From Tetrapyrgos nigripes (Eukaryota; Basidiomycota; Agaricomycetes; Agaricales; Campanellaceae): a DNA stretch of 64,000 bases. Position 1 is the first letter of the stretch. Each line of letters begins with the position of its first letter. The notes under the pieces are model-generated. The model searched no databases. It was not told the DNA's origin and saw nothing but the letters and a program-made list of their open reading frames with translations. Below are positions 16,047 to 59,852 of the stretch, one piece after another. The stretch lies in assembly GCA_013368315.1 (NCBI GenBank), contig JAACJM010000123.1:186001-250000 (forward strand). Reading direction: 5' to 3'. A program made the translations under genes and the position numbers.

Positions 16047-17113
16047 CATCCCCTCACTCTAGCTCTCCTAACGTTTCACCTCTCAGTCCCTTCACCTCTG
16101 CTACCTCTCCCCTCTCCCTCTCCCCCATCTCCTATGCCTCTGCGCTTCGCCAATTCACGGACTACACCCTAACCTGCCCGCTCTTCTTTATCACATACCT
16201 CTCGTACCGCACATATCTCACCTGCCCCATGTACTCCTTCCCCCTGTCCTTATCCAATAGATTCATTTCCCTCCATTGTTACTGTTCACACATCATTCAT
16301 GTCCTCTCTCAATCTCGATCCCTGGAGTGATCGCTGTAACACACACAACAATACCGCTATCAACTTCTCTTCATCGAGATCACTACCATTGCCATTCCGT
16401 CGCCACTCCTTCACTGTCACTTTGCCTCACTTCGCCCTACTCCGTCTTTTCCCTACCTCAGCAATTGTTGCCACTCGTCACCACTCATCTACGTACATAT
16501 AGCACCATACCCATATACACTAAGCTGCGTCTTCATAAGGCCTCTATATGTCTATATCACTACCTTCAAATCAACTCTTCCTCATCAAAGTTACTGCCAA
16601 TGCTGCACAGCAGTTTTATCTTTTGTGCCCACAGCTATTGACGCTCGGGGTCCTCACCGTAAAAAATAATCTTTAATGTCTGGAGTGTAGGGGGTGTATG
16701 TTCGTCTGTAGGACTTTCGGGAGCGGCCCCACAGCGTAAATATTAGGAAGAATCGGGCTCTAGACGAGATGACCCTCTTCAAGAACCCTGAGTATCCCAA
16801 AGCCGTCGCCACGGCGGCAAAGGAAATTGAAAGGAAGTCAACCCACTCCTTCAAGAATTATCGAATCGACGTCCGCAATTCAGTCTTCCTCAGGCTGGGA
16901 TTATTACCCCTTTCAATTGTTTTCTACCTCGTTTCCTTTTAGAATTCTGTCTATTATTACTGTCCCCCGTTACAGTACGATCTGCAGACATGCTCGATAC
17001 GTTGCGGGAATAGTATTAATACTCAGAGGGGTATTCCTTGTAGCGAGTGGCTGGGGTGTAGCAGATTGATGAGGTGGACATTTTCGCATCCGGCCGCTTG
17101 CCTCAGTTGAAAA
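16047..17113. other. no gene recognised
   Basis: Pyrimidine-rich on the plus strand up to about 16650, then mixed. No convincing coding region, RNA or repeat was found before the transposon end at 17114. Confidence 0.25.
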
Positions 17114-17199
17114 CCGGTACTGGTAAATTTGCGGACACCCCTTGCGGACACCTTGAAGGGTTGCGGACACCCTGTAGATAGGATTGTAGATACTGTATG

Positions 17200-18060
17200 A
17201 GACTGTACCTCCTGTGTCAAGTGTATATCTTGCCTCAGAGACACTTTCAAGGTCTTGTCCACAGAGTGTAAAAATCTTCAAAAAGTGGGATAAGCACAGC
17301 CACAAATTTTTTTTTTTGATATGTTTCCACAGATAATTTCTCTAAAGAGTGCTAAGAGAAGATTCATACATCCTCATGAGTCAAATATCATTGTGAAATT
17401 GCAATGCTGAAGACACTCAAAATGTTTTTCACAAATCTCAAGTGCTTTGAGAAGCTGACTGCCAGCATCTGCACTTGTCAACTTTGAATATCAACTAGTT
17501 AGTGGTATAAGAGACAGGTCATAGCATGTTTCTGGAAGATATACATTATAATAACTCCAAGGTAATCTGTACTCACCATAATTTTAACATTTGGACCTGT
17601 CAACTTTGAATATTAAACAACTGATGGTATTGGGGTCATGTCTTAGCATGTTTGTACAAGAGAAGACATTGTAATAGCTTCAGAATCAGTTGTACTGATT
17701 GTAATCCTGTTTTGCACTTGTAACACTTTGTAGACACCTTGCGGATACCTTGCGGATACCTTGCGGACACCTTGCGGACACCTTGTGGACACCCTGTATA
17801 CAGTCTCAGGAGTGCCAGTTACAACCCTGATGCATTCCAGCACTGTCAACAGAATGTAAACTTTTTGAAAAAAAGTGGGAGAAGCACAGCCACAAATTTT
17901 TCTGAGAGGACATTTTGCAGACACCTTGTGGACACCCTGTAGACAGCCTCAGGAGTGCCAGTTACAATACTGATGCATTCCAACACTGCCCACAGAGTGT
18001 AAACTTTCTGAAAAAAGTAGGATAAGCACAGCCACAATCCTTTTCCTGATGTTTTTACAG
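17200..18060. repeat. subterminal repeats of the 7.8-kb transposon
   Basis: A block running from the GCGGACACC words through 'cagtctcaggagtgccagttacaa' to 'aagtgggataagcacagcc' appears at about 17200-17310, 17740-17900 and 17910-18040, with CTTGCGGACAC or similar words in runs at 17730-17790. The same block occurs twice in the deletion derivative (52080-52160 and 52620-52730). Arrays like this at one end of a DNA transposon are usually transposase binding sites. Confidence 0.75.
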
Positions 18061-18233
18061 ATAATCTCCATACAGGATTCCAAGAGAATATTCCTACAGA
18101 CTCACAAGTCAATCTCTCCATGAACTTGTGACACTGAAGGCACTCAAAATTTTTCTCATGCACCTCAAGTGCATTGAAATGCTTACTGTCAGTCTTAACA
18201 ATTGTCAACTTTGAATATCAAAGAATTTACTGT

Positions 18234-18368
18234 ATTAGGATCAGGTCGTAGCCTCTTTATACAGGGTAATACATTGTAATTAGGATCAGGTCATAGCCTC
18301 TTTATACAGGGTAATACATTGTAATTAGGATCAGGTCGTAGCCTCTTTATACAGGGTAATACATTGTA
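18234..18368. repeat. 45-bp tandem repeat, three copies
   Basis: The unit starting ATTAGGATCAGGTCGTAGCC repeats at 18234, 18279 and 18324 with one base changed in the middle copy. It lies just downstream of the transposase gene's stop, inside the element. The near identity points to recent expansion. Confidence 0.95.
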
Positions 18369-18425
18369 ATAGCTTTACAATAATTTCATTCTAATTTCTG
18401 CAAATAGACAATTTTAGCAAAGAGA

Positions 18426-21400
18426 CTACTTTCTTTGCCTGCGTAGCCTCTTGTATTGGTGTTGATCTTCTGTCTCATGATTTTCCCTTTCTGCAACAAG
18501 TTTGCGCTTGGAACGTGTTGATTGATATGGTAGATGATGCTCTGTTGGCTCTGTAGCAATTCCCTTGTTTAATTCTCCAACTTTTTGTAAAGCCTCTTTG
18601 GAACTGTTTAAGATTTTCTCTTTGAACCGTGGCTTTGGTTTGGGTCTGGGAGGTGCTTTCTTCTCTTCCTCTATCCGCTTTGCTTTGTTTTCTGCCTCAA
18701 TCTTTTCCCGTATAACCTTGCACTGTTCACCCTCCTGGAAGATTAATTAGAAACAAATTCAGAAGAAAAATGATATTACTTTACCTCAAGGTCAGATTCT
18801 GTAGCATGTTGGATATCAGGTGCATATTTCTCTGGACCATCATAGGGCCACCATGAATCCTCTGGAGGACCAACATCTAGGCCCCATTGCTCTCTTCCTG
18901 CTTTGCCTGCCTTTGCTGATCTATCAAACATTGCTGCTTCTAATATCATGAGTGCTTCCCCATCCACATCTGCCCTTTGTATTTTGTCCTTTCCATCCAC
19001 AGTCTTTCCAGTGAAATCCACTAGTCGCTGCCATGCCTGCTGAAGAATCAAACATTCTATTTCCTGAACAGATGATCCCTCTTTAACGTGTTCCAGAAAT
19101 GTTTCCCGTTGAGAATGAGCTAAGAAGAGTGTACGAGCATGTGCAAAACACAATTCAAAATCAGCAGCTGTGAAATCTTTTCCAATTCCAGCAACATTTT
19201 CATGAATCCAGTTCAAAATTCGAGCCCTGTCATCTGTAGTGATCCCACCTGTAAAGTATGATGGACAAGGATGTCCAAACATTGATGTGAGAGCAATGTA
19301 ACCTTCTGGCAATGTGTATCCCAAGTCAATGTCTTCAAGGTATAGAGACAGGGCAGGAACACACTCTACAGACAGTTCTGAAAAGTCGGAGCTAATTGTG
19401 GAAAGCAGAATCTCCTGAAGAGTGATCTTGTGCTTGTATAATGCCTTGTCAACTTCAGTGTTATAGGGAAAAGCTCGCCAGTCAGTGGCAACATCTTCTG
19501 GATCACGTTCCTCATGTATCCGGGTAAATTTGCCCAGCTAAGAAGATATGTATTAGACTTTTTCAAGCACTGGAATCGTAAAAGACATACCCTGATTGCT
19601 CGTTGACCCTCACGGTCGCCATAGAGCCCATCAACTATCCTGCTTATGGGGATACCTTCTAATATCTTGTTTGCATTCTCATGTTTGATGCCCCGCCACA
19701 TCTTGACTGTCCACTTGCCTTTTTCCCCATGGAGAAGACGGCCTGGATAATAAAATTTATCTCTGGCAGTCATCTGAAGTAAGACAGTCCTCCCAGCACT
19801 GATGTAGATTAGTCAAAGAGAATCAATTTTAGGGCTAATAAACTTACTAGAGTCGATTAGCAACATCCTGCAACATTTGAGTACAATTGGGTGGTCTGAT
19901 TTCCAACCTCTTTGAGGCCAACAGTGATTGACCACTGCAGACATGACATATGAATGCTCCCTCAATTGTTGGTTCTAACCGATTGACAAGGCAGGCTAAA
20001 TGTGACCACTGCTGACATTGATCACATTGCACTGTGTCCTGTTTTACACTGTCACGATGACCATCATTCTCAGTGCCACATTGACAGAGTATAGGAAGGG
20101 GTGACGAAGGTGGTGGAGAACTAGAGAGAATTGTCCGTGATGGTGTCACTGGACATCCAGAGCTTGCGTTGGAATGAGGTGAAATTGATTGAATTACTTG
20201 TTGGTCAGAGTCTGTTTGTTGATACTCTGTAACTGAGTAATGTGGTTTCCATCTCTTGGTTTCCTCCACTTTCATGACTCTGTACCCAGCCTTGACCAAA
20301 GTGGCTGAATTGGTCCCATCTAGCTGTATATCAAGCTTTTCTTGTGCTGTTTTGATACAGTCTTGGTGGAATTTCTTCTGAGCATTGACACCACCTTCAA
20401 GGCTATAGAAACTGCAAACAGTGTGATAACCAGAAAGTGATGTTTTTCCACCCAGCAAATCTGCAATCTTCCCCTTCAACTGCTGGGCATAGCCATTGTG
20501 CTCCATGCCATCATACAAAAAAGCAACTGATTTTCCACCAGTTGTTGGGATAAGTGTAATACATCTGAAATGTGTTCCGTTTGAAAACATCCGGCCCACA
20601 AGCTTGTATACAGCACCACTCTTTTTGCTAGATGATTTGGTGTCTAGATACATCGCACAAGGAAAATCCCAATCAGGTTGCTTGCCCTCCTCACTCACAC
20701 CTGGCCGAATAATGAGTACAGAGGGAATCCAGCTGACAAATTCCATTTTTTGGCAACTTCCTTGACAATATATATCTGGATCATTTGTACCCTCTCTTGT
20801 GTGATGTCTCCAGCATTCTTCAAAGCTCTGTGGAACCTCCAGTGAAGACAAGTTAAAGAGTGACTCAAACCAGTTGCCTATATTGCCTTTAAAGAGATTA
20901 AAGTCCCTTGCAGCTGGTTCCTGCCATTGAGAATTTGTGACGCGAGGATGCCCAACCTGATAGTGACCCTCACTGCAACTGGAGACCCTTTGAATGACAG
21001 GAAGAAAGAATCTGACTGCATCTGGACAAATGGGACCATCACAACGCTTGGCATTTGGGGCTGTAATCAAGTAGTACAGCCAATACTAGAGAAATAATAA
21101 GTTTCAAAATGTTAAAAATTGATTATAACAGTCTTACTAGAGCAGAATGGTATTCATGTTCCTGCATTCATATAAACTGAGCATATCTGAGTATTATAAA
21201 AAGAGATCAACTTACTATATGATATGAGGTCTCTTCTCCTGACAAACAACGGGGTAGCCCAGCGAGTATGTGTCTAAACCTATCACGTATGTTCTGAAGT
21301 TTTTGTGATCCATCATCCTCAGAGTGAGATCCTGCAAAAGTAGAGAGTGGCCATGCTCTCCGGTCACTCAGAGTTTTGTGCAAGTATGAAATTGGCCACT

Positions 21401-24400
21401 TGGTGGGATCCTGTCCAGCACAAGGAGCAGCAAAGCTTGCAAACTCTTCCCAATGTCCATGACACATTAGTGTAATATACACAAGATGCAATGATGTATC
21501 AAGCCAGCAAGAGTTACGTGACCATGGGTAGCTAGCAAATTCCTTGGTAATTGCCAGATCTATTGACAGTGGAGCAGATAAATCAGGTCTTTTTTCCTTT
21601 CCCTGTGACATCTTCTTTTTGGATACAGGAATTTTATCATGTTTGGAAGAAAAGCTATCCAAGACTGGAATCTTGATCTGTTGCTCCTTTTTTGCCTTTT
21701 TAGGTGATGAAGGCAACTCATCTTCAGAACCAGAGCTACTGAGAGCTAAAATCTTGACATGCTTTTGTTTCTTAGATTTTCTGAGGTCGGACTGAGTATC
21801 AGGGGCGCGACCCTCCCTGAGTGCAGAGCGGTCACGTTTTCTAGGGGAAGGGGTATGACTTTGACTGCTGCGTCTACGTTTTGGGGTTTCTGGTATTGTT
21901 GTAGCTGCAAGCCGATCAAGCTTACGCTGGCGCTGAGATCGGCCATACCGAATTGGTTGGCCAACTGCATTGAAGATCAGTGAGAGATATTCTCAAAAAT
22001 TAGACCAAACCTACTACTATAAGAGTCATACAGGCCTTGAAAATGCTGTGAGACTAGGAGCAAACCATCACATCCAGGAACAATATCCTTGTTTTGGCCT
22101 GGCAGAAAATTGAGTAATATTCTGAGACATATATCAGGATTCCTTACCAGCAATAGTGTATATAACAGAGTGCAGAGATTCCTCTGCATTTGTTGTATCA
22201 GGAAGCTTGGAGGCAAGTGTGCTATCCATTGTTCGTTGACTCCTAAAAATCATACTAGCATGTTCAGGAGCTAGCCACCATCTCTGCCATGCTTCCAGCC
22301 CTGGCCATCTCTCTTGCATTATCTTCACTAATTGATTGAATACACCGGAATTCTCTGTCTCAACCATCTGCCTGCAGGTTTCTAGAAAGTTGTCTCTTGA
22401 TTCTGGTGGCACATGGTTACCAAGCCGAGAAACACGTGTCATAGATTTCTCAAAATGATATTTACATCCCTTGATAAGTTCCTGGGCAGCCTTCTCAAGC
22501 TCAGCACGTGTCCGAGTGTTGTCCTTCCAGTCCATAAAACAATCAACAAATGCAGATATAAAACCAAGTCGTTGTGCATCACTAAAATCAACAACCTTTT
22601 TGATTCAAATCAGTGAGATATAATTTAATTTAGTCTTGATAAAGAGTTCTCACCAATGCAAACAATTCATCTTTAATTTCCATGTCATATTCTAGTGCAG
22701 CTTCAAAAATGCTCTTAATCACACTAGTAAAATGCCAATGGTAATGCCGAGTGGTGACCCCATTGGCAAAGCTGAACATGCAGGGGACCCATCTATCAAT
22801 TCCTGGACAGAATGTGGTGGTTGAAATCAACACAGAATTGAGGTCTGACCAGTACTTGTGTGCTCCATCTGTTAACATTCCTTCCAGTGGCAAAGGTCCT
22901 TCTATTAATACTGCCTTTGGCAAAAGTTGATCTCGCATCCACTTGGTGTGAAATGATATGACACATTCATCCTATTTGTTTGTTTATTTATCTTAGTTAC
23001 TGAAAGGTCCAAACAGGTAGATATTAGTGAACTTACCTCTCTACCCACAGTATTTTCTCTCATGATGACTTCATCACGGTGCCGCTTGATCCAAGAGTGG
23101 AACTGATTGATAAATGATGATCCAACTTCTGATTTTGCACTGTTTTTGAAATTCTTGCGGTGATATCGGAAAGTATCGGGGTTTCCAAGGCATTGTCCAA
23201 TCTCTCGTGCTGGTTTTGTTTTACCCTCAGAGTCTTTGCCAGCTGCATAGCTTTGCAAGGGAGTTTGATCTTGATTAATTTGAAGATGCTCTTTGGTATC
23301 TTTTGACTCCTGGGCTGTCAGATGCTTGACGTAGGGAAGCCTGGGATGGTTGTGGGGTTGACCATTGATGTATCGATATTTACAAGTTGAGATATCTGTG
23401 CCAACCTGACCATATTCAATAAGGTAGGAACGGGATTCACAAGGGAAATGTTCAAGTGAGGCACCACACTGACACTGTTGTGTTATTGTCTGCTTTTCCA
23501 GTGATTTAGCATGCGTTTTAGGTCGAGTGATGATATCACAATTTTCATTCCTGCACCGGAGTATACCGAGACATTGCTTGTAGCTCTCTCTGCCCTGGGA
23601 TATTGTTTCACCATTCACTGTAAAACTTTGACCATTCTTTCCATTAGCTCCACTGGAGCCCCGTGTAGCCCACTGAACTGCAAGATTCTTATGTGCACTA
23701 AAAGTCGAGTAGTCCAGGTCAATAGCAAATTTTCCATTTGGGAACCCATTCCAAAATCCACCTTCAAGCAAGTCAATGCGGGTGAATGGCACACTCATAT
23801 CATTTTTGTGACGACACTGAGGTGCTGGTGGAGATTCAAGTGGAACAAATGTAGTCAGATGAGCAGGATCTGTTAGATCTACAGGATATACTGCTATATT
23901 TGTAGGGTGAGCTGGAGCAGATGGGACTATGACAGTTTTGTCTTGAATTGGTTTCTGCAGTGCTGGTACAGTAGATGGGGGCTGAACAGTCAAAGGTGCA
24001 TTATTCTGAGTGTTATGCCCAGCTATAAATTCACTCAGACACCATTCCACAGTTAAAGGGACTTCCACATACCATTGGAGATGCTTGTAATGTGATGCAA
24101 TTGACTGTCACCAGTGCTTCCCTTCATTTTGGAAAAAAAACCTATAAGAAGAATGATAAGTTTTAAGGTATATTCATCAAGAAGTGATTGATATAGTAAA
24201 GATCTTACCCTCACTCCAGACCTGGACCTGCACCATCTCTGCATTGGTAGCACTCAGATTTATATTCATCTGATGGTTGTCTTTCACTCTAGGACTGGCA
24301 TCCTTAGGTGCAGGTTTGCAAGGTAGATCTTTTCAAATAGCTCAGATTGACACCATTTAGCTATGATAGCAAATTCTACATACCACAGTTGGCTATGCTG

Positions 24401-24801
24401 TCCTCTGGAACCTGAATTGAAGAGTTTGTGTATTCTAAATTTAAAAATAGGAGTAAAAATAGAAGTCAGTGCAAACTGCATGATTGTGATAGCATCAACA
24501 AAATACACACCATTGATGACAGATTTGCTCATTGTATGAGGTGGCTCCTCATTGCTGTGAAGTTGCTCAGTCTCCAAGTCTGGATACAGAAATATGGCCA
24601 GCTTTCTACGCCAGCCTTGCTATAAAAACTTAGACTACATACTTGAACTATACATATTTGGAGGAGGATACTTACAAACAAGCTCATCTTTACAAAAGTG
24701 AGCCAACGAAATGTCGAAAGTGTTGAAGATTCAAAAGTGTCCAGGTCACAAGTCCAAACCTTTAGCTTCCTGCACAAAAGGCCATCATTCTGATTACTCA
24801 T
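18426..24801 (-). CDS. transposase fusion: WRKY-GCM1 zinc finger, DDE core, USP-like peptidase, PHD finger
   Basis: One spliced minus-strand gene from ATG 24801 (MSNQNDGLLCRKL) to TAG 18426-18428. Domain order: a WRKY-GCM1-type finger (YKQCLGILRCRNENC near 23570, CQCGASLEHFPC near 23470, GQPHNHP near 23350); a DDE core (GMLTDGAHKYW near 22875, VVDFSDAQRLGF near 22580, LPDTTNAEESLH near 22185); a basic linker (21600-21950); a deubiquitinase-like domain with Cys box NSCWLDTSLHLVYITL (near 21500), His region GTHFRCI (near 20570) and YDGMEHNGYAQ (near 20505); a C4HC3 PHD finger (CQCG...CDQCQQWSHLACL...CHVC, 19925-20090); and a conserved C-terminal region (YYPGRLL..WTVKMWRG, 19690-19750; then 18776-19324). 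The Lys/Arg-rich tail ends RRQRK. I found no stop or frameshift inside the exons, in contrast to most elements nearby. Some exon borders are not fixed. Confidence 0.78.
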
Positions 24802-25071
24802 AGCAGGTGGTAGGAGTGTTTGTATTATCCCATAAACTAATAGAAACAATGGTTTTTGACAAGAATAGGTTCATAGCAATGAAAAATGGGTGTCCGCAGG
24901 GTGTCCGCAAGGGGGTGTCCGCAAATTTCTCATACCCGCAAGAAATACAGAGTGACAAGAAATACAAGTTTCATTGTACAGCAGCTTTGCAATAGGGTAA
25001 GAATTTTAAACTAAGAGACCATCATGGAATAAGTATGAGTAGGGTAGGGTAAAGGGGCCAGGGGGATAGTA

Positions 25072-25830
25072 TTAGGGAGGAGAGTCAGCAAGAGATGAAT
25101 TAGCAAGGCCTTCAAGAGCCTCCTGGATAATAGTGTGAGAAATACCATTGTGAACACAAAAATCTTCTAAAGAAGCATAAACTCTATCCAGCTCCTGCTT
25201 CTTATAAACCTCCACCATAGCCTTTAAGACAATCTCATCAATACACCTCCAGTAAAGGAGGAAAGCCAGAGAGGTCCAACCACCAAGTTTAGCTACCATT
25301 TCAGGTGGGAGGCCATCCAGTAGATGGAATACCGCTCCACCAATATGAAAGCTATGTCCCAGAACATCACACATTGCCTCCTTCTTCCAAATGTCAAAAC
25401 AACAATCCAGAAAGTCAGATTTTACCATATGCTGAGGCACCCCTTGGTCATCGAAGTAACTGAACATGGAATAATCTTCGGGGATGTTGGTGTTCAATTG
25501 GTAATAGAGTCCAACAGCCTGGACACCACAGATACCATATGGTTCTGAAATTCTGGCCATGAGGATCACATCAGTACCCAATTCACGAGTAGACTTGGTC
25601 CAAGGGAGGTGGAAGCTTAGACAAGGAACATCTCTTTCCATCTATTGTTTGAAGATAGTAGAGTGGGGAGCATGATGGCGAGGATCAAATTTTGATCTGG
25701 AAGGAATGGTGAGTTTGCCAAGACAGCGACATGCCAAGAAAGAAATGATGGTGACAGCCAATACTGCTTGATGGAAAGGTTTAGAGAAGTTCAGGTGTTT
25801 CCAAAGGATCTGGAGGTGGTGATATGTCAC
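25072..25830 (-). pseudogene. tyrosine recombinase of the DIRS-like element
   Basis: Readable family blocks are VLAVTIISFLACRCLGKLTIPS near 25700-25760, GHSFHIGGAVFHLLDGLPPE near 25320-25370, and KLGGWTSLAFLLYWRCIDEI with the nucleophilic Tyr near 25250. In this family the two Arg of the R-H-R-Y set sit in CCRRLGEL and HSFRIGGA. Here the first block reads CRCLGKL and the second HSFHIGGA, both explained by CpG transitions. A TAG stop follows FKQ at about 25642. The enzyme cannot be active as encoded. Confidence 0.8.
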
Positions 25831-28345: not shown

Positions 28346-30594
28346 TCAATTATAAAACTGAAGTCCTAATTGTTTCCTGAACTTCTCAAACTTTACTCGA
28401 TCTAGAGCTTTAGTGAGTAGATCTGCAGGGTTATTGCTTCCTTCAATGAAGAATAACTTGACTGTCTCGTCGATGACTTTTTCTCGAACAAAATGATATC
28501 GAATATCAATGTGCTTGGTTTGCTTATCCGTGACAGGGTTTGATGCAATAAAAATTGATCCCTGATTGTCACCATAAATTGGAATAGCGTGGAGAGGATA
28601 TTCAATTTCACTGAGAAGAGTCTTGAACCAGCAGACTTGTCGACTGCAGTCACTAAGTGCCATGTATTCAGCTTCAGTCGAAGATAGAGCAACTGTCTTT
28701 TGTTGTCTAGACGTCCAGCTAAATGGTGCTTGGGCTAATTGTAGAAAGAAGCCAGTTTGAGATTTGCGAGATCCAGGATCTGATCCCCAATCGGAGTCTG
28801 TATAGGCTGATAAGCCTTCTCCCCCTCGACCGTTGTACACAAGAGCATATTTTCTAGTGCCAACGAGGTAACGGCAAATGTCTTTTGCCTTATTGTAATG
28901 TTCTTGTGAGGGGTTTGCAGCAAGATGCGCAAGTTTTGTGACAGCAAAGGAGATATCAGGATGTGTTCCTAACATTAAATAGAGTAAGGATCCGATTATC
29001 TCTTGATAACTTTGACGAAGAGTATAATTGACAGGAGTGTCTTCTGGAAGAGGAAGAGGGTGATAATTGCCAGGTAATGGGGTAGCAGAAGCTTTCGCGT
29101 TTTGCATTCCATAAGTCTCTAGGATTTTATCCAGATAAGCGCACTGGTCTAAAGAGACCTTGCTGCCTTTCCTGGTAATTCTCATCCTAAGGAATTCTTT
29201 AGCATCACCTAGATCCCTACATTCCCATCTCTTCATAAAGTTTCTTTTGAGTCGTAAGACTAAGGTTTTGTTAGTTCCACAGAATATAGCATCATCCACA
29301 TAGACTACGGCAATGACGATAGAATTTTCAATAAGATTTTTGTTGGCGTCATAGCGTTTGTGAATGAAGATTCCGGTGTCGGAAATGATTCGTTTAAAAC
29401 CAAGTTCCGCCATGGACTTATCAAGACTTTTCCACCATGCAAGTCCTGCTTGTTTGAGTCCGTAAAGAGCACGAAGAAGCCGGATGACTTTATGCTCTTG
29501 TCCTTTTACTTTAAAAGCTTCCGGTTGTTCCATATAGATTTCTTCATCGAGTAAGCCATATAAATAGGCTGATCGGACATCGACACCAGACACGTGCCAG
29601 CCCTTAAGTGTGGCTAAAGCGAAGATTAAGCGCACAGTCTCGAAACGAACAACAGGCGAATATATTTGATCAAAGTCTATGCCTTCGACCTGTGAAAAAC
29701 CTTTTGCAACGAGTCTTGCCTTTTTACGACCATCAGTTTTTGATAACTTTCCTATCTGTAGGTCTTTCGACCAATTCATAGGTGTCGCGCTTGCGAAGAG
29801 CCTCTAGTTCTTCGCAGCAAGCGACTTTCCATTCCTCTTGCTCAGCTATAGGTAAGCGAGCAATATCTTTGAATGTCCATTCGCGAATATTACGAACATT
29901 CAGTTGATTCCCATCATTTTTCGAAGTAACTTTCTGAATAAGCAAGTGGGAATCGATTTCTCCAGGAGCAATTGCCTGCATAAGCAAGAAATTTATAGAT
30001 ACTCCCCCTTCCTGGCATGGTTCTGCCATTTCTTCTGATTCAGGGCGTGCAGAGTCATCACTCTTGGCTTGCTGCTCCCCCTGGGGTGCGCTTCCGGATG
30101 CAGAACTAGGTCTGGGAACCTGTTGCTCTGCAGCTTGTTGACGTCGGTGTTCTCTCCGAGCGTCTCTCTCTGCTTTAGCTTTTGCTTCCGCTCTTTTATC
30201 AGCCGCGATTTGAGGTTCAAGATTGCGTGTAACTTGTACGGGGTGTTTATCTCCGTACCGTTTGTTTGGTTCACTAACACGCTCGCTTCGACGTGTTGGT
30301 TCTCCGTAATTCCGTCTTGGTCTAGTGACTTTTCGAGGTGCCACAGGAGGTGGTGTCTCCCTTGGAGGTGGCGTTATAGGCCTTCTAGGTTCTAAGTCAC
30401 TATCCGGGGATGAAGGCGGCGGATCCTGTTCAGGCTCGTCGTCACGAAACTGATCAGGTCTCCTTATGGAAGGGATGCGAGGAGGACGATGATTAAAATC
30501 TTCATCATCATCGTCAGGGATTGTTTGTGGTAGAGGAGTGTCATCGTTTTGTGACGACTCGATAGGAAGTTGTTTCGAACTACGAGATTGAGTT
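28346..30594 (-). pseudogene. Copia pol part 2: linker, reverse transcriptase, RNase H
   Basis: Starts in a Pro/Glu/Arg-rich linker (DDDDEDFNHRPPRIPSIRRP), then IPIAEQEEWKVACCEELEAL-like sequence, then the RT (ARLVAKGFSQVEGIDFDQIY, YSPVVRFETVR, LRALYGLKQAGLAWWKSL, and YVDD in VVYVDDAIFCG near 29290), then RNase H (AYTDSDWGSDPGSRKSQTGF, SSTEAEYMAL, YGDNQGSIFIA) and a C-terminal HIDIRYHFVREKV, ending near 28346. Near 29745 the frame shifts and the expected RWVFDIK block between KVIKN and DGRKKARL is missing, consistent with a deletion of about 22-23 nt. Near 30630 another indel separates it from the integrase frame. Confidence 0.9.
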
Positions 30595-31659
30595 TTACAT
30601 TGAGGAAAAGTCTTCCTCAAACACGGCTTGCGGGGATGTAAATTCCGCATTGTTTGTACGCATGAAAAGATTTCCACGTTCTCCCGGTGCTACACCAAGA
30701 TACGTCATGAGTTCTGACTTGGAAGCGAGCTTGTTCTTTCGAGTTTCCTCGGGTTTAAAGACATAAGCTCCACAGCCAAAAACTCGCAAATGATCGATAC
30801 GCGGTTTTTCTTTTTCAAGCATTTCAAATGGAGTTATCCACTTGTGTCGTCGTAAGGGAGTACGTCGATAGACATACAATCCATGACGGACAGCATATTC
30901 CCACCAAGATTCCGGTAGACACGCTAGCTTCATCATTGCCAGTGCCTTATCCATTAGCGTGCGTATAAAGCGTTCTGCTCGACCATTCTGTTGATGAATG
31001 TATGGTGCACTGTTAAGGATTCTAATACCCTTCTCGAGTAACATTTCTCGATAGGTACCTTTGATGAATTCACCACCCATATCAGACATCCACTGTTCGA
31101 CTTTCGTCTTATATTGAGTTTCTACCATTGCAAGGAACTGGCGAGTGGCAGTCAGTGGTTGTTTTTTGTCTTTAAGAAGTTGTATCCAAGCATCTGAAGT
31201 GTAATCGTCAAAGAAGACGATTATATACTTGTACTTGTGGTAGGATATCGTGGGGTATTCATGTAAATCCGTATGGATAATTTGGAAAGGACGAGTAGCA
31301 CGTCGTTCGTTAGGAGGGTAAGCCTGTCTGGGAGTTTTGCCTTCAAGACAGCCTTTGCACAAAGGAAGTTCTTTTGGAATGATGAATTCAGGAGTGCCAA
31401 GGGTGTGTTGTCGGACATGTTTTAGAACATCACGAGAGGGATGTCCTATTCGACGATGTAAGATCTCGTAGTTGATAAGATAAATCAAAAGATTGGCTTT
31501 AGAAGCGACAATTTTCGATTTGTGTGGAAGATAGTATAGCGTTTCTTCCGGTATACGCTTTGAGAAAGTCAAGAATGTTGTATTTCTCGAGATGGTGATA
31601 TGATCGGAGTTACCGCGCATAAGCATGTTGTCATTTAAGAATTGACCGACAGATAAGAG
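30595..31659 (-). pseudogene. Copia integrase
   Basis: The zinc-binding part is HRRIGHPSRDVLKHVRQH...CKGCLEGKT (about 31330-31470). The DDE core has IIHTDLHEYP, MSDMGGEF and HQQNGRAERF (near 30990) as its three acidic positions, followed by the conserved LRVFGCGAYVF and YLGVAPGERG. The frame is open from just after the TGA at 31660-31662, but it has no natural start there: it is the continuation of the gag-protease frame. It ends FEEDFSSM with a frame change into the linker. Confidence 0.9.
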
Positions 31660-34275
31660 TCATTGATTTAGATCGGGAATATAATAGACCGGATATAATT
31701 TCATAACTCTTTTACGTTGAGAGATCAGGACTGTTCTGGATGCACGAATGTTCGTGAATCCATTGGCAGTTTTCACTGGAATTGGTTTTATATAACTCAA
31801 TTCAACAAAGTCATTGATGTCAAACGTAAAATGTGCTGATGCTCCAGAGTCAAGTAACCATCCATCACCGAAGTGGATTTTGACGGTGTTAGATCTCTTC
31901 TTCTTACATTTCTGGCATAGTGAGAACAGAGTGCCACAGGCACATAGATATTTATTGTCACCAGGACTAGTATACAGATCATTATAAATAAAAGGGGTTG
32001 ATGAACCCAGAGGAGCGGTATGTAATAAATATATACATGAAGAACCTGCTTCCATCTTACGAGCTGCTGGAAAAAGCGCATCAGTACTTTTATTCATAAG
32101 ATCTGAAGTGAGATCTGACCTGAGATACCCATTGTCCATGCCGGAGACTTCAGAGTCTAAGGACCAGCCATAATTATTTGCGGCATTGACGGTAACCATG
32201 GCGGAGGTAGAAGGTCGTGGACTTGGAACTCTGTCTGACCATATGTCCTCTACAGGTGATGTAGGGAGGCTCATCCTGCTGAGCGATGGCGGAGTCAACA
32301 TGTACTCAAGGTCGCTGGTTTCGGATAGGCTCGGAGACATGCTCTGGAGTTCTGGCATTGAACTCGGAGTCAGGACCCTGGAAGGTAATTCCATCCCTCC
32401 TAGTCCGATTGTTGCATCTCTCTGCCAATCGAGCAGCTCGTTGTACCTTCCATCCTCATTTTGGAGATGAGGAGTTAGCCATTCCCATCCCGTTGAAGTC
32501 ATTCCAGGTGTTGGGCTTGCAACACGACTGGATGGCAGGGATTGAGTGGTCATGCCACTGGGATGTGCAGGCGGTGAGCCACTTGGCATTTCGCTGCAGG
32601 CTGCAGCAATGCGTTGGACCAGTGAAAGAGTGCCCGTTGGGACAACAGTGTTCAGTGCTGCTCGGAGTGGTTCCCCATAGATGTGTAGGGAATCCTCGGG
32701 ATTCTGGAATCTCTCCCCAAGGTGAATTCCGCACTCCATCATCTCAGCAGCAGGATCCGAGGCAAGACGGTCGATAAGTGGAACAGGGGTCCGGATGTCC
32801 TGTAAATCCTTTACACCTGACTCCGTCATTGTGGAGCCAAACACACTTCCGAGTTCCGAAGTGTTCACCAGAGTGTCCTCGTTCCAACTGGCATCTTCTC
32901 CTTGAGCGCATGCCATATCGGCATCTGAACCGGTCTGAGTTCCGGGATATTCACCATTCCAACCATTCCAGTTACCATCATCACCCCAACCATCAGAAGA
33001 TGATTTAAGGTTATTCCAATAGATGCGTTCCGTGAGAGTGCGTTTAGAACGAGGAGCAGGGGTAAGGGGAGTGAAGGAGGAAAGATCGGGATGAGACATG
33101 ACGACATCCTCTAGAGTAGCAATAGTCTCACCAGATGGTCTAGCGCCAATATCGCATGCAAGGTTGATAGCTCTTTTGGTACCTGTGAAGAAGGCGTCAA
33201 AAGGCTTTTCCGTTTCCATGAAGAATGGCTTACGGGAATCAACTGCAGCAGGCGTGTCGACGACGGTGACTGTGTGCATCATGGGAGACATGTCCCCATG
33301 AGCGAGATGTGCTTGGCCATGTCTCTTGGCCTGCTCATACTTTCCAGCTCGACCTCCTCGACGGAAATGAGCTTTTCCCTTGCCCTTTCCTTTCCCCTTT
33401 CCCTTGTTATCTCCATTAGAGCCACTGGCTCTGTTAGCGCCGCTGCTGCTGCCACTAGGGCGCTGCTGCTGCTGCTGTTGGAAACTAGGGTTACCGTCCT
33501 TTCGCTTGACAGCTGAAAGACGGTTGGCATGGGCTTTCCCTGAAGGCCCCTTGAAAGCTCCTTGGCGAGATTCCCAGATATTAACAATCTCAGTCTGAAG
33601 TTCATCAAGACTTTGATTGTCGACCTGCGTGATGGAGCATTGAGTATACTGATTGATGAGATACTCATATCTGGGAGGGAGTTTGGAGATGATGAACATG
33701 ACGATTAGGAAATTGGCGACTTTCGTCATGGAGGTGCCTGAGGGGTCATCAGTAGGGATACCGGCGGCACTGACCCTATCGAAGTGCATGCGAATAAGTT
33801 CGACCACAGCACTAGGATTAGCATCATTTGGAATGATGATGGAAGTGGCACGTTTGAAATCCGTGTAGATTGCAGAAACTCCAGGTTTCCCGTAGGTCTT
33901 CTTGAGAAAGACCCAAATTGCTGTGGCAGTAGTCATTCCGAGTGTCTTCTGACGAACGGGAGGAGAAAGACGAAGTTTGATAGACCCAATGGCCTTATCG
34001 TTCTTCTCATCCCAGTCAGCCTGTTTCTTTCGAGCCGCCGTGATTGCCTCAGTTTGAGCCGCCGTATCTTCAGCGGATAGAGGGGAGACGGTACTCACTT
34101 CGGCATCACTGGGGCGATCAGAGCTAAGGACTGAACTAAGTCCAGTAGCCTGGAGCCAGGCAAGAAGAATGTTGGCCCAGATGTTGAAATCAACACCGGC
34201 GAAGACGGGGACAGTGGTCATCAGGACGTTGGAAGACATCTTTGATAATTTCTGGGGAAGGTCAACTGTCAGCAT
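31660..34275 (-). CDS. Copia Gag and protease polyprotein, ended by a TGA stop
   Basis: ATG at 34275, with a second Met at 34239 (MSSNVLMTTVPVFAGVD) that may be the real start. The N-terminal part is Copia Gag (FNIWANILLAWLQATGL, AIGSIKLRLSPPVRQK). A Gln-rich run and a GKGKGKGK basic tract replace the usual CCHC knuckle. A long acidic and Ser/Pro-rich spacer (about 32100-33050) follows, then CACGTLFSLCQKC and the aspartic protease motif WLLDSGASAHFTFD near 31850. It ends YYIPDLNQ then TGA; related elements continue with Arg-Leu-Leu-Ser-Val-Gly, so the TGA most simply replaces CGA. Confidence 0.9.
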   Translation of the reverse strand: MLTVDLPQKLSKMSSNVLMTTVPVFAGVDFNIWANILLAWLQATGLSSVLSSDRPSDAEVSTVSPLSAEDTAAQTEAITAARKKQADWDEKNDKAIGSIKLRLSPPVRQKTLGMTTATAIWVFLKKTYGKPGVSAIYTDFKRATSIIIPNDANPSAVVELIRMHFDRVSAAGIPTDDPSGTSMTKVANFLIVMFIISKLPPRYEYLINQYTQCSITQVDNQSLDELQTEIVNIWESRQGAFKGPSGKAHANRLSAVKRKDGNPSFQQQQQQRPSGSSSGANRASGSNGDNKGKGKGKGKGKAHFRRGGRAGKYEQAKRHGQAHLAHGDMSPMMHTVTVVDTPAAVDSRKPFFMETEKPFDAFFTGTKRAINLACDIGARPSGETIATLEDVVMSHPDLSSFTPLTPAPRSKRTLTERIYWNNLKSSSDGWGDDGNWNGWNGEYPGTQTGSDADMACAQGEDASWNEDTLVNTSELGSVFGSTMTESGVKDLQDIRTPVPLIDRLASDPAAEMMECGIHLGERFQNPEDSLHIYGEPLRAALNTVVPTGTLSLVQRIAAACSEMPSGSPPAHPSGMTTQSLPSSRVASPTPGMTSTGWEWLTPHLQNEDGRYNELLDWQRDATIGLGGMELPSRVLTPSSMPELQSMSPSLSETSDLEYMLTPPSLSRMSLPTSPVEDIWSDRVPSPRPSTSAMVTVNAANNYGWSLDSEVSGMDNGYLRSDLTSDLMNKSTDALFPAARKMEAGSSCIYLLHTAPLGSSTPFIYNDLYTSPGDNKYLCACGTLFSLCQKCKKKRSNTVKIHFGDGWLLDSGASAHFTFDINDFVELSYIKPIPVKTANGFTNIRASRTVLISQRKRVMKLYPVYYIPDLNQ

Positions 34276-42397: not shown

Positions 42398-45300
42398 ATG
42401 TCATCCTCCCTGCGCAACCACAGGGTCATCATCGCCTCCCTTTTCCTCCCCAACACCGTCGTACTTGGCCCAGACGAACCGGAATACTACTCGTACCAGT
42501 CTCCTCAACCGCAAAAACGCTCACCCGAGATTACTGTCCCGGATGTCGTTCTTCGTCTCCAGAAAGACAAGGCTAAGCCTGTCTTGACATCCCAGATCTC
42601 AAGTGCTCATCCACATCTACCTTCATCGGCTCTGGGAACTCCTTCCTCGCCCAGTGTACCAACAGTAGCGAATGCGCCAGGTACAGGTGTCATACCCACA
42701 TTGACATCGACGATGGCTGGGACCCCTCCTACGGTGACTCCGGGGACGACGAATGCCGTTAAATCTATCGTTCAGGACCTCAAGGACCGGGCAACGGCAC
42801 GAAAGAGCGGTGCTCTAAGTGCCAATGTACCACTCACTACTGCACCGCTGTCACCAGGGGCGACTACTGCCGAAATAGCGAATCCCTTTTCGAAACCTGG
42901 AAGTGTTAGCGGCAGTGGTGCTGCTAGTGGTGCTGTGACGCCTGGGTTGGCTAAACAAGGTGTGTTTTCGTCTTGTTACTCCTACTTCACAATTAAGTAT
43001 TTACATCTCATACAGCTGTCACTCATGGTCATCATGGTCATGGTGGAGCACATCGATCTCCACTCTCTCGTGTCGGGTCTTCTGTCGCAATACCCAAACG
43101 CGACGCGTCAGCTGCTCATCCCGCTCCAGTTTCCGCTTCAGACATACCTGTCCCACCTATCCCTGTCACCAGGCACCGAACCCTCTCTCGTCGAACATTC
43201 CGGCGGCAATCCTCCACGGCTCTCTCGTCTTCTTATACTTCCGGTTCAGGACGTTCCAAATCGAAGAGACGCACCCCGGGAGCGGGTAGTACCGCATCGA
43301 TTTCGTCTATTATGTCAGCGTCTTCGACAGCGTCCATTTCTGGAGCTGAAGCATTGGATACACCGAGTTATCCTTCACCAAGTCCTTCAGGTGACGATAT
43401 CTCGACAATGTCGGATTCAGCGACGTTTTATGACGAGGATGAGGGGCATGCAGGTGAGGGCTTTCTTTCGTTACTTTTCTTGACTTCCCGTCATTTCGGT
43501 TTTTTTTTTTTTTGCTCGTGGTAGTCCCGTACTGACCCAGCATCCACATAGACGAAGAAGACGAAGACGAGTTCCACATCGAGCCCAACTCACACTGTAA
43601 CGCGGGCCTCAAAAATGCCGTCGACTCTGTCTCACCCTGGTCTTCCGCTCCTGACGCCAACTTCGTCAGAACAACCTCCCCTACATCCACATCTCCCGTC
43701 GCTACCTCCCCTGGTGCTGGCCCCGGTACTCCCAGTGTCGGTCAGACTCACAAACCTTCTCGTACTCGCACAGGAAGCCGCACATCCTTTTCTAACCCCA
43801 ACGCGTTCTCAACTGATTTACGTGATCGCCCTCTTCGTCAAAAGCTTTGGGTAGGAACGCTTGGAACGAGGACGGACGATTGGAGACCTGAGCTAAGGGG
43901 AAAGGTAGAGGATAAGTTGAGTAAAGAGTTTGAGAATGAGGTAGTGTGGGTTGAGGATGGGGTTTTTGAGGGGGCTTATGATGAGTTTTGTCATCAGGTG
44001 AAGCTTCATTAATGATTTATTTCAATATTTGGCGTTTTACTGATGTTATGGACTTTCTAGGTCCTCTGGCCCACTCTTCACTATACCGTCCCTGATGCGC
44101 CTAAGACGAAGCTTCTCGTGTATTCCTCGCCGACGTCCAAGGCTTATAAGGATTACGTTGAGGTTAATAGGAAGGTTGCGGAGAAGATTAAGGAGATTTA
44201 TAGGTCGGTATCCTTATCTTTCTTTCTGCGTCCATTTCTGCAGTTGTAGCCATCTTCTTGCTTCTTTTCTGGCTTGGTCCTTCTTTCCAATCTTCCCTTT
44301 GTCCTTATATTATACTCTTTTTTCATCAAGATACTGACTATATGCGCATATATAGGGAAGGCGACGTTGTTTGGGTCAACGACTACCACCTTATGTTGGT
44401 ACCGAGAATGTTACGAGCATTGGGCATTGCTGGAGCTGTAGGTGAGTCAATCAGAGCGCATATACACGCCTTGTTCTTCTTTCCTCTACATATGATAACT
44501 AAATATATTCTATCTTTTCTTCGTCGTCTCCTTCAGGCTTCTTCCTCCACGTCTCTTTCCCCTCGTCCGAAATCCTTCGCTGCCTCCCCGTCCGTATCCC
44601 TCTCCTACGTGGTATCCTCGGCGCCGACCTGGTAGGCTTCCAAACAGCCAACCTCGCCCGACACTTCCGTCAAACCTGTGGTCGAGTCCTCGGTGTCGAA
44701 GCCTTACCTAGAGGTGTCGTCGTCGGTGACGAAGCCGATGACGAAGATGCCTATGATGCTTTCGAGAAATTGAAAGCTGGGAAGAAGACGGAGAGCAGTA
44801 GTGAAAGTGATTCCGATGATGCAACCGACCCGAGAAAGAAGAAGGATCCTTATTATGCACCTTTAACGCTCACAGGCGATAACGCCAGCGCCTCTGGACT
44901 CACTCGGTTCGTCAATGTTGGAGTTTTCCCCATGGGTATCGATGTTGGTCGTCTTAAGGAGAGGAGAAAGAGTCCTGAAGTAGAGGAATGGGTCGAGGTG
45001 TTGAAGTCCCGGTACAAGAGCGGAAAGAACCAGAAAGTCAAGTTGGTCGTCGGGAGGGACAAGTTGGACGACGTGCAAGGCGTCAAACAAAAAGTCCAAG
45101 CTTTTGAACTATTCCTCGAAAAACACCCCGAATGGGTCGGAAAGGTCGTCCTTATCCAAATTGCCTTACCTTCCCCCCCACCACCTACTTCCCCCTCTGA
45201 AGGCGGACACTCTAAACCAGCTCACTCCGCCGCAGCTCATTTCTCTTCACTCTCCAACGATTCATCAGCATCTACTGCGGCTTCGACAGATATCACCTCT

Positions 45301-47160
45301 ACTATTCTCTCCAAAGTCGCACAAATCAATTCAAAATGGAGTTCGTTGACGTATCAGCCGATTGTATTTTTACATACGGCGGAAGTGGATTGGAATCAGT
45401 ATTTGGCCTTGCTTTCGGTTGCTGATGCATTTTTGGTGACAAGTTTGAGGGAGGGAATGGCATTGAGGACGCATGAGTTTGTGGTTGTGCAGGAGGGGAG
45501 GGGGAAGGATAATAGCAACGGCAAACCCAAGGGCACTGATACCGATACCAACGCTGAGGCTGACCCCGATGCGGCTCTCTCAGACCAAGAAGGAACACTC
45601 ATCCTATCAGAATTTACTGGCTCATACTCGTACTCTGGATTCCGTTCCTGCATTGCTATTAATCCATGGGATACGCGTGGTACGGCGGATGCTATAGCCA
45701 AGGCATTGATGATGGATAAAGAAGAAGCTAAAAGTCGGTGGGAAGAACTGAGCGAACACGTCGAGACGCAGACGGCTCAGGCTTTCGTCAGAGGCTTCTT
45801 GGGAAGGTGTGTGAGAGCTGCAGCTGAGAATAGGGGATTGGGGGCGTATAAGAAGAGGAAGCATGCTACTAGGAGGAATGTAGGAGAAGATGGTGACGAA
45901 CTCGAAGAAGAAGATGACGATGATGAGAGGACCGAGGTCGAAGAGGTGGATACGAGGAAGGTCAAGCTGAAATGGAAACATGCGAATAAGAGATTAGTAT
46001 TTGTGGATTGGGAAGGGACGTTGGTTGGGGATTGGTTGCCGATTCCGAAAGAGTTGCAGTTGCAGAGGGAGTTGGGGCTTTCGAGGGTGATTTCGAGGGA
46101 AGATGAGGATGCAGAAAACCCACAGAATGAAGATATGAAGGAGAAGGTGCTGAAAGAGTTGAGTGAGAAGGAAAAGAGGAAAGAGGAAGAGTTCCAGAGA
46201 GCGATTGAAGTGTTGAAGAAATTGGCGGCAGACCCGAAGAAGAATGAGGTTTGGGTACTGAGTGGGTTACCGGTCAAGGGAGTGTTGGAAAAAGTGGAGA
46301 AGGAGCTTGGTGGTAACATTGGCATTGTGTGAGTATCTCGTGCCTTTTCCTGGAGCAATATGAGCTGTCGCTGACGAAACGGGTGTAGGGCTGAAAACGG
46401 GTGCTTCATCAAGACACGGGCAGCACCCACCTCTACGCGTTCCGGAGCAGAACGGCAACAGCAACAACAAGGCTCGCCATGGTTGAATATGGTAGCAAAC
46501 CTCAATATGACTTGGAAGAGTTCTTGTTTGGAAATTTTGAACTACGTGAGTTGATTTCTGATTTTCACGTTCCGTGCGCTGACTATATACATCTTCCTAG
46601 TTCACGGAACGCACACCAGGCTCTTTCGTCGAAGAACGTGCAGCATCCGTGGTTTGGAGGTTCTGGACGGGCCCTACCGATGATATTGCAGACAGACAAT
46701 GGGCTAGACGTCAGGCTGCTGAAGCGCAAAACCATATATTCGACAGGCAAGTATCTGTCACTAGTCTTCATCTATCTACTCTAACCTTCCCTTCTACAGT
46801 CTCGGTGAACGCTATGGTCTTCGCATCATCCCCGGTACCAACTCTTTCCTCGTTCTCCCAAATAACATTTCTCGTTCCTCTGCCGTTGGAGCCATCCTTC
46901 ACCCTGGAGGCCCAGCGCATTCACCTCTCGTTGGCCGCTCAGCTTGGATGGTTTCAGAAACCGACAGCGTTCCTATGGTACCCGAAGAGTGGGATTTCGT
47001 GTTGGCGGTCAGTGGAGACGAGAAGTTGTTGAGGAGGTTGGGAGAGCTAGACCAGTGTGAGACTATGACTATCTCTACCAGTGGGAAGGGCAGCGATGCC
47101 AAATGGAGGATGAGTAGTGGCAGAGCTGGGGAGGTGTTGGGTGAGTTGGCGAATGCGTAA
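42398..47160 (+). CDS. TSL1/TPS3-like regulatory subunit of trehalose-6-phosphate synthase complex
   Basis: Nine exons that join in frame: 42398-42959, 43016-43453, 43552-43997, 44061-44203, 44356-44441, 44537-46328, 46389-46545, 46601-46746 and 46800-47160; 1376 codons plus TAA. Residues 1-24 (MSSSLRNHRVIIASLFLPNT) resemble the start of TSL1/TPS3, followed by a Ser/Pro/Thr-rich region of about 350 residues. The glucosyltransferase domain follows (LWVGTLGTRTDDW, VLWPTLHYTVPDAP, EGDVVWVNDYHLMLVPRMLR, LGADLVGFQTANLARHFRQT), then a phosphatase-like domain (VFVDWEGTLV, GIVAENGCFIKT, FTERTPGSFVEER). The usual VDRLDYIKG is VGRDKLDDVQG and RDGMN is REGMA; the HAD motif DxDGT is DWEGT and GDDxTDE is GDEKLL. 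Both active sites are degenerate, as in regulatory TSL1/TPS3 rather than TPS1 or TPS2. Intron 8 uses a GC donor. Expected role: scaffold and regulator of cytosolic trehalose synthesis under stress. Confidence 0.93.
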
Positions 47161-51985: not shown

Positions 51986-53336
51986 CGGTATAGGTAAAGT
52001 TGCGGACACCCTGCAGATAGGATTGTAGAACACTGTATGAGACTGTATGTCCTATACCAATGTATATCTTACCTCAGAGACACTTTCAAAGTCTTGTATC
52101 TGAATTCCACAAAGTGTAAAAATCTTCAAAAAAGTGGGATAAGCACAGCCACAATTTTTTTTCCTGATATGTTTCCACAGATAATCTCTCTACAGGACAC
52201 CAAGAGAAGATCTCTACACCCTCATGAGTCAATCTCATTGTGAAATTGCAATGCTGAAGACACTCAAAATTTTTCTCATGCATCTTAAGTGCTTTGAGGC
52301 TTGCTGCTAGCATTTGCACTTGTCAACTTTGAATATCAAATGATTGGTTACCATGATTGGTGGTATTATGCTCATGTCTTAGCATGTTTCTGGAAGATAT
52401 ACATTGTAATAACTTCAAGATAATTTGTACTCATTGTAGTTTTAACATTTGCACTTGTCAACTTTGAATATCAAACAATTGATGTTATTAGGGTCATGTC
52501 TTAGCATGCTTCTACAAGATAATACATTTTAATAGCTTCAAGATAGTTTGTACTCATTGTAATTTTTGCTGTACACTTTCAACACCTTGCGGACACCTTG
52601 TGGACACCTTGTGGACACCTAAGAAAGCATATCTTACCTCAGAGACACTTTCAAAGTCTTGTATCTGATGTCCAACAAAGTGTAAAAATCTTCAAAAAAG
52701 TGGGATAAGCACAGCCACAAATTTTTTCCCAATGTTTCCACAGATAATCTTTCTGCAGGATACCAAGAGAAGATTCCTACACCCTCACTAGTCAATCTCT
52801 CTGTGAAATTGCAACACTGAAGACACTTAAAATGTTTCTCATGCATCTCAAGTGCTTTGAGATGCTTGCTGCCAGCATTTGCACTTGTCAACTTTGAATA
52901 TCAGACAATTAATGGTATTAGGGTCATGTCTTAGCATTTTTCTACAAGATATACATTGTAATAGCTTTATAATAATTTGTACTCATTGTAATTTCTGGGA
53001 ATAGCCAATTTGTAAAGAGACTATTTTCTCTGCCTCTGTGGTCTCTTAGATTGGTGTCCATCCTCTGTCTCTTCACTTCCCTTTTCTGCATTAAGTCTGT
53101 GCTTGGAACGTGTTGATTGATATGGCTGATGAGGTTCTGTTGGCTGTGTAGCAATTTTCACAAGTCTGAGACTTAGGTGCCTGCACAAAAGGCCATCATT
53201 CTTATTATTCATAGCAGGTGGTAGGAATGTTTGTACTATCCCATAAAATAAGAGGAACAATGGTTTTGAGAAGGAATAAGTCCATAGCAATGAAAATATG
53301 GGTGTCTGCAGGGTGTCTGCAAATTTTTCATACCCA
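51986..53336 (-). mobile_element. deletion derivative of the 7.8-kb MULE-like transposon
   Basis: Flanked by a perfect 9-bp direct repeat GATATACAA (51977-51985 and 53337-53345). The left end matches 17116 onward (TTGCGGACACCCTG then CAGATAGGATTGTAGA). The right end matches the other element's right end (ATGGGTGTCTGCAGGGTGTC). Inside, only the transposase gene's first exon (MNNKNDGLLCRHL) and last codons (STRSKHRLNAEKG...RQRK) remain, joined near 53170; the whole DDE-USP-PHD part is gone. The subterminal repeat block is present twice. Confidence 0.92.
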
Positions 53337-59405: not shown

Positions 59406-59852
59406 TTAAGATGAAATTGGAAGAGGACCGGGTTTGTTCGGATTCTTTTGATGATACTCGTCTATAGCTTCTTCGGCTGTCAGCTCATCCGCGGGAAGCC
59501 AGGAAAATTCTTCGTCGGTGCCTTCGTAACCAGACCATTGTACCAAATATAGTAGAGGACATTTCTGACGGCGCCGATCGATTTTCGAGTCTAAGATTTC
59601 GGTGATTTCGTATTCAAGTTCACCTTCAATCTCGACCGGAGCGGGCGGATCTGGGATACGATTCGGAATCGTGTTCGGGACAGCGGGTTCTAGTTGGGAC
59701 ACATGGAAAACAGGGTGGATTCCACGGAGATAGTCAGGGAGCTTTATGCCATAAGAAAGAGAGCTCGGACGAGAGATAACTTTGAATGGACCAAGGAATT
59801 TCTCGGAGAACTTTGGAGTGGGTCTTGTAGTTTTTATGTGTTTTGCGGACAC
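59406..59852 (-). CDS. Gypsy integrase C-terminus and chromodomain
   Basis: Continues the pol polyprotein after a one-base frame change. FSEKFLGPFKVISRPSSLSY is the GPF/Y module, followed by LRGIHPVFHVSQLEPAVPNT, and YEITEILDSKIDRRRQK, YLVQWSGYEGTDEEFSWLPA and DELTAEEAIDEYHQ form a chromodomain (Y-x-V/I-E-x-I-L; YLVxWxGY; E-x-SWxP). Chromodomains of this kind direct integration to heterochromatin by binding methylated histone H3. Confidence 0.92.
   Translation of the reverse strand: MSAKHIKTTRPTPKFSEKFLGPFKVISRPSSLSYGIKLPDYLRGIHPVFHVSQLEPAVPNTIPNRIPDPPAPVEIEGELEYEITEILDSKIDRRRQKCPLLYLVQWSGYEGTDEEFSWLPADELTAEEAIDEYHQKNPNKPGPLPISS

Follow-up and report, generated by a model that had tools for sequence, protein, structure and literature searches.

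The stretch of DNA analysed here, 64,000 nucleotides from the agaricomycete Tetrapyrgos nigripes (contig JAACJM010000123.1, positions 186,001 to 250,000; hereafter the window), contains a DNA transposon whose gene encodes, in this order, a GCM-type finger, a DDE transposase core, a domain that is very probably a USP-type cysteine isopeptidase, a PHD finger and a possible Tudor-like segment (Table 1). An earlier note on this DNA had proposed one intact gene combining a GCM-like finger, a DDE core, Cys and His boxes and a C4HC3 PHD finger; all of these were found in a single open spliced frame free of internal stops, and the interpretation of the domain combination is supported overall. The minus strand was spliced by eye at GT-AG introns, with the splice sites read from the sequence and not from transcripts. 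An initial model of 13 exons and 1827 aa ran without interruption from 24801 to the stop codon at 18426, and was completed by one further exon. The completed model has 13 introns, all GT-AG and 49-130 bp long, and 1855 codons followed by a single terminal stop; residue numbers refer to the 13-exon version, which leaves window coordinates unaffected. The element ends, the 14th exon and the possible Tudor-like segment lie outside the span or model of the earlier note. A database protein of the same species, P0001, showed 94% identity over query residues 480-1420, and P0002 and P0003 are further T. nigripes relatives.

Table 1. Features of the transposon and its gene, in window coordinates.
Feature	Position	Strand	Basis
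DNA transposon, end to end, 7824 bp	17115..24938	-	End motifs located; same ends at other copies
Terminal inverted repeat, 3' side of gene (inner limit approximate)	17115..17153	+	Core AAATTTGCGGACACC
Terminal inverted repeat, 5' side of gene (inner limit approximate)	24900..24938	-	Same 15-bp core
11-bp minisatellite GACACCTTGCG, 5.5 copies, inside the element's 3' end	17733..17793	+	Tandem Repeats Finder
Transposase gene, 14 exons, 1855 aa, no internal stop	18426..24801	-	GT-AG splice model
Added 84-bp exon, absent from first gene model	22015..22098	-	Matches gene model of relative P0002
GCM/WRKY-type zinc finger, ligands 6 Cys and 2 His	23340..23756	-	Residue positions, family conservation
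DDE transposase core: D 22867-22869, D 22587-22589, CxxH 22455-22466, E 22182-22184	22152..22890	-	Residues, conservation
USP-type cysteine peptidase domain, one 130-bp intron within	20390..21548	-	Relatives' predicted fold, conservation, dN/dS
Catalytic Cys (RNSCWLD)	21507..21509	-	Register with Cys450 of USP35 and Cys77 of USP30
Four conserved Cys/His between boxes: C 20975-20977, H 20963-20965, C 20813-20815, C 20765-20767	20765..20977	-	Conservation
Catalytic His (THFRC)	20570..20572	-	80/80 proteins with a letter
Third triad residue, Asp (YDGM)	20510..20512	-	Asp 74/81, Asn 7/81 rows with a letter
PHD finger (C4HC3)	19937..20086	-	Pfam PF00628, E 5.8e-6, 26.7 bits (cut-off 24)
Possible Tudor-like segment (YAGRTVLL..FYYPGRLL..WTVKMWRGI)	19687..19849	-	Weak family-profile PDB match

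The whole gene is enclosed by the ends of a multicopy element. The termini, CGGTACTGGTAAATTTGCGG at 17115 and CGGGTATGAGAAATTTGCGG (read inward) at 24938, belong to inverted repeats whose core occurs exactly at 17125-17139 and, on the minus strand, at 24914-24928. In the 98.5-Mb genome (587 contigs), at least 60 stretches matched exon 10 and at least 51 matched exon 9, counts that are lower bounds in which one copy may contribute several stretches. Matches to exon 10 at 98-100% identity were found at eight places including the window, among which C150 covers part of the exon and C46 has one stop, and at an additional split place (C301); the remaining groups show about 85%, 76%, 66% and 27-40% identity. 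The terminal 120 bp gave 43 matching stretches, a number that exceeds that of the close coding copies and fits the mobilisation of deletion copies in trans. Such a copy is present in the window itself, where a 1351-bp sequence at 51986-53336 with recognisable inverted repeats is flanked on both sides by GATATACAA, a perfect 9-bp duplication, and is a non-autonomous derivative of the same element.

Both expected ends were retrieved for nine other places and scanned for exact end motifs, so that, with the window copy counted in, 5' flanks could be read for nine copies and 3' flanks for five. Copies C46 and C295, together with the deletion copy, have their own 9-bp target-site duplication, a length within the 9-11 bp of Mutator-like elements (MULEs). 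The full copy in the window has none (17106-17114 compared with 24939-24947); its 3' flank, GTTGAAAAC, is found instead on the 5' side of the C51 copy, whose own 3' flank in turn stands on the 5' side of C301; the 3' flank of C150 found no partner among the flanks read. Near-identical copies with swapped flanks suggest either exchange between copies or assembly error. As a cut-and-paste DNA transposon of mushroom-forming fungi, the element looks autonomous.

Proteins with this domain architecture also occur in other fungi. A profile search recovered 79 relatives, all from Agaricomycetes as judged from genus names and mostly annotated as hypothetical, in which profiles of the four domains detected USP in 78, DDE in 79, GCM in 62 and PHD in 56. 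The search is biased towards relatives of full length and the domain profiles derive from proteins of the same set, so that a sister family without the USP domain may have escaped it. All four domains were found in 50 of 91 proteins and their order was unbroken in 91/91, which, together with the position of the gene inside the element, leaves practically no credence for a host gene lying next to a transposon or within one, or for a gene-model fusion, even if some database models are clearly chimeric (P0002 with PF00840, P0085 with KDZ); this explanation was rejected on the recurrent architecture. That the observation goes beyond chance follows from the multiple copies of exons 10 and 9, from this architecture in other fungi and from a PHD finger above the Pfam cut-off. 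As to the fused gene models, P0002 joins the transposase to PF00840 (named cellobiosidase) and P0077 joins it to PF07250/PF09118, suggesting that copies of the element may sit in genes.

Nearly all rows conserve the ligands of the GCM-like finger, each being kept in 35-41 out of 36-42 that have a letter at its position. The Pfam GCM profile matched one relative (P0008) above its cut-off and three (P0016, P0018 and P0041) below it, and gave no match in the window's own exon, in P0085 or in six other relatives scanned. Fingers of the WRKY-GCM1 class were reportedly linked with Mutator-like transposases in a 2006 study. In the DDE core, the two D and the E were each present in 48/48 rows with a letter, and the Cys and His of CxxH in 48/49 and 48/48. 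In the model of the relative P0040, the first D lies on a predicted strand (254-259), the second just past a strand (328-330) and the E on a helix (464-477), which in this predicted topology is the canonical RNase H order. Residues and predicted topology together are those of a DDE transposase.

When exon pieces and spliced regions were scanned against Pfam, the PHD finger alone scored, and neither the DDE nor the peptidase part reached a cut-off. The MULE domain PF10551 had no match in the window pieces, and the window was absent from the 26 MULE matches of the genome. Alignment of the DDE part by hhalign with three MULE frames of the same genome reached a probability of about 2%, which is not significant, with an E-value of 0.019 vs 0.27 for a reversed control and also better than for other domains; around the first D the two appear to align in register, an observation not counted as evidence. 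On these sequence comparisons, homology of the DDE part to MULEs is not shown. Membership of the KDZ transposons found no support, as PF18758 had no match in the window pieces. In P0085, from Suillus hirtellus, a KDZ match stands ahead of the domains of the USP transposon, probably in a nested or chimeric gene model.

The segment between the DDE core and the PHD finger had been likened in the earlier note to USP enzymes, with the Cys of NSCW, the His of THFRC and an Asp/Asn as the presumed triad. Structure prediction of relatives bore out this resemblance, and the order of the Cys and His boxes and the triad residues are those of USPs. The alignment of this domain covered 89 of 91 sequences (90 database proteins, some of them close copies, and that of the window), giving 98 domain rows. 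No substitution was found at any aligned letter: the catalytic Cys was present in 63/63 rows (35 gaps), the His in 80/80 (18 gaps) and the third residue as Asp in 74 and Asn in 7 of 81 (17 gaps). Per protein, the counts were 63/63, 80/80 and 81/81; all three residues occurred together in 56 proteins, and 22 had His and Asp/Asn without a letter for Cys. As in peptidases of family C19, the Cys box precedes the His box and the Asp/Asn follows the His, here by 15-22 residues and mostly by 16-17. Four nearly invariant Cys/His residues between the two boxes probably form a zinc site, as judged from their conservation.

Predicted structures of relatives have the USP catalytic fold. In fold searches with two of these models, nearly all of the 50 entries listed per model were ubiquitin-type USPs or Pan2, with 8-16% identity in the structural alignments to USPs, and the register of the catalytic Cys with those of USP35 and USP30 was derived from the aligned ranges; the match list of the 1065-residue model was taken up by USPs. 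OTU, Ulp1 and VTD entries were absent among the best 50 matches listed per model, which excludes none of these classes. Public sequence profiles did not detect the domain: no Pfam UCH/USP match appeared in any scan, the best profile match in the PDB was USP12 (E 0.2), and with a profile of full-length proteins PHD fingers filled the matches, with no USP among the 60 rows listed. A 30-residue query with the Cys box found no match among PDB sequences and so did not confirm a presumed similarity to the box of USPL1. The domain does not match the VTD class of deubiquitinases, whose active site is Asp-x-His, whereas here the Asp/Asn comes after the His. The viral structure library, searched with the P0040 model, returned as its best match the uncharacterised bracovirus protein O92526 (533 columns, E 1.4e-11), possibly, on this model comparison, a related transposase in an insect virus; the matches after it were mostly viral ubiquitin hydrolases.

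The main rival to ubiquitin as substrate is SUMO: the domain might, like that of USPL1, be an isopeptidase for SUMO or for another ubiquitin-like protein and work as Ulp1 does in plant and animal transposons. We regard this as unlikely in view of the predominance of ubiquitin-type USPs and Pan2 among the fold matches, a weak argument, since the same few proteins recur and the matches are compatible with SUMO. The presence of the Pan2 pseudo-hydrolase among the top fold matches also raises the idea of a pseudo-enzyme serving for binding or assembly, as in Pan2. The absence of the Cys segment from 26 of the 91 predicted proteins fits such a role, which is nevertheless very improbable given the unsubstituted triad and its retention within T. 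nigripes. Indeed, among the higher-ranked matches of this genome (loci L009-L075, two places counted twice), 38 of 39 places cover the Cys position and all have Cys, and His and Asp were each found at 35; covered places keep all three residues, barring extra off-frame alignments with other letters or a stop at C560 and C301. A loss of the Cys/His pair from most copies, which would speak against the assignment, was not seen at these places.

A text pattern for the Cys box found nothing in 30 of the 91 proteins, comprising three with a variant box (P0030, P0060 and P0081), one without a domain match (P0086) and the 26 in which the segment is skipped or the domain starts late. In four Mycena proteins (P0050, P0055, P0061 and P0066), the text breaks off immediately ahead of the Cys and resumes at MEPMF, MKPMF or MQPMF, as though splicing had removed the Cys helix, which from the sequences would be either a shared annotation error or a real loss. 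The ratio of nonsynonymous to synonymous substitution rates (dN/dS) was 0.11-0.44 in the peptidase pieces, apart from 0.71 in one piece of the near-identical C201-C145 pair, and 0.09-0.33 in the DDE pieces, that pair again excepted (pairs with dS >=3 or a short overlap were left out). It is very likely that the transposase carries a USP-type isopeptidase, a judgement on the identity and catalytic competence of the domain that does not extend to its substrate.

The PHD finger has the C4HC3 ligands and matches PF00628. The best PDB match of its family profile was Bye1 (E 7.6e-13), and it also resembles those of ASH1L, SHPRH and EBS. At what we take to be the cage positions, the Trp before Ser-His was kept in 31/38 rows, although the residue three before the third Cys was Ala in 18/38, so that no complete cage for methyl-lysine can be made out. 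After the finger, a family segment (GKGALARxGxYWYPVRLI..WxVKWWRG) matched four PDB chains with E 0.11-0.97, below significance; two of these are named PHF20L1 and a third aligned alike. We assume that the PHF20L1-type chains matched are Tudor domains, and on sequence similarity the segment is possibly Tudor-like, with no Pfam match of note.

Elsewhere in the window, open reading frames recognised by eye resemble the end of a tyrosine recombinase (25072-25641, minus strand, no Pfam match of note), a Copia-type retrotransposon (28346-34275, minus), a trehalose-phosphate synthase (44770-46332, plus) and a Gypsy-type retrotransposon (59734-63851, minus).

Transposon-borne peptidases of the ubiquitin/SUMO type are already known, and the USP-bearing family is new as far as our searches reach: no description of a USP-bearing fungal transposon was recognised in the open-licence literature, in a search that was not exhaustive and had Repbase outside it. 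The published accounts compared here are represented by the portions accessible to us, and what they do not mention is to be read within those portions. Ginger1 transposases carry Ulp1 or OTU domains, at least one family (Ginger1-9_HM) also a PHD finger, and the same source cites Ulp1-bearing Mutators of hydra, lancelet and plants (PMC2836005). As in the present element, a DDE transposase is there followed by a ubiquitin/SUMO-type cysteine peptidase, but the peptidase is Ulp1 or OTU instead of USP and a fungal host is not mentioned (PMC2836005). The plant Kaonashi MULEs likewise multiplied with a peptidase and are of Mutator type, whereas their peptidase is Ulp1/C48, and PHD and USP are not mentioned (PMC6117577). 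Many VTD deubiquitinases occur in Helitrons and others in agaricomycetes; the Helitron ones share with our element a transposon-encoded deubiquitinase type with a conserved active site, but belong to a rolling-circle element and have an Asp-x-His site, unlike the His followed 15-22 residues later by Asp/Asn found here (PMC9741609). A Trichomonas protein joins transposase_11 to peptidase C19, the USP family (XP_001314237.1, cited in PMC2836005); it is a single protein brought up in the discussion there, with another transposase family and host. Cellular deubiquitinases (USP7, USP12, USP30, USP35 and the USP of SAGA) share the fold, the order of Cys and His boxes and the triad, and differ by the low identity, the detection by Pfam UCH that fails here and the absence of a transposase.

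The element also resembles Rehavkus, so far recorded from arthropods and annelids, in having a PHD finger in the transposase, a minisatellite before the 3' inverted repeat and 9-bp duplications, as that group is described in the accessible portion of PMC6446971. Membership of the Rehavkus group, with a peptidase overlooked there or added here, is nonetheless somewhat unlikely. The host is fungal, the likeness is one of described features, and the main text of PMC6446971, as far as covered, makes no mention of peptidase, ubiquitin, USP or GCM.

With an active USP-type peptidase as the preferred assignment, the parts of the protein suggest how it may work. The GCM-type finger would bind the element ends, and the DDE core would cut and join DNA, in keeping with its residues, its predicted topology, the inverted repeats and the 9-bp duplications. 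The peptidase, with its intact Cys-His-Asp/Asn triad in a fold predicted on relatives, would act as a cysteine isopeptidase with ubiquitin as its substrate, and the PHD finger and the possible Tudor-like segment would tether the complex to chromatin. We tentatively propose, with somewhat less than even confidence, that the peptidase deubiquitinates proteins at transposon-bound chromatin or in the transpososome while the PHD finger holds the complex on marked chromatin; the complex would then persist and act in places where it would otherwise be degraded or blocked through ubiquitin signals of the host. A more specific scenario appears doubtful, namely an undescribed lineage of Agaricomycetes transposons in which PHD/Tudor-like readers are joined by an active USP that strips histone ubiquitin at the donor or the target site, enabling the element to open its own chromatin or to tolerate it. 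The cassette would in that case be a portable counterpart of the SAGA deubiquitinase module. Roles suggested for peptidases elsewhere, as given in the portions covered, are help in DNA repair (PMC2836005) and shielding of transposition proteins from the proteasome (PMC9741609), and by analogy both could fit the present element too.

Presence in nearly all of the relatives recovered, an unsubstituted triad, a single chain shared with a nuclease and reader-type domains, and young copies with 9-bp duplications make the role of the peptidase directly testable. Ubiquitin/SUMO peptidases have repeatedly been acquired by unrelated transposons and some viruses, with a benefit to the element that is not established in the portions of the cited work available, and the family described here adds to them a USP class that is invisible to the Pfam profile.
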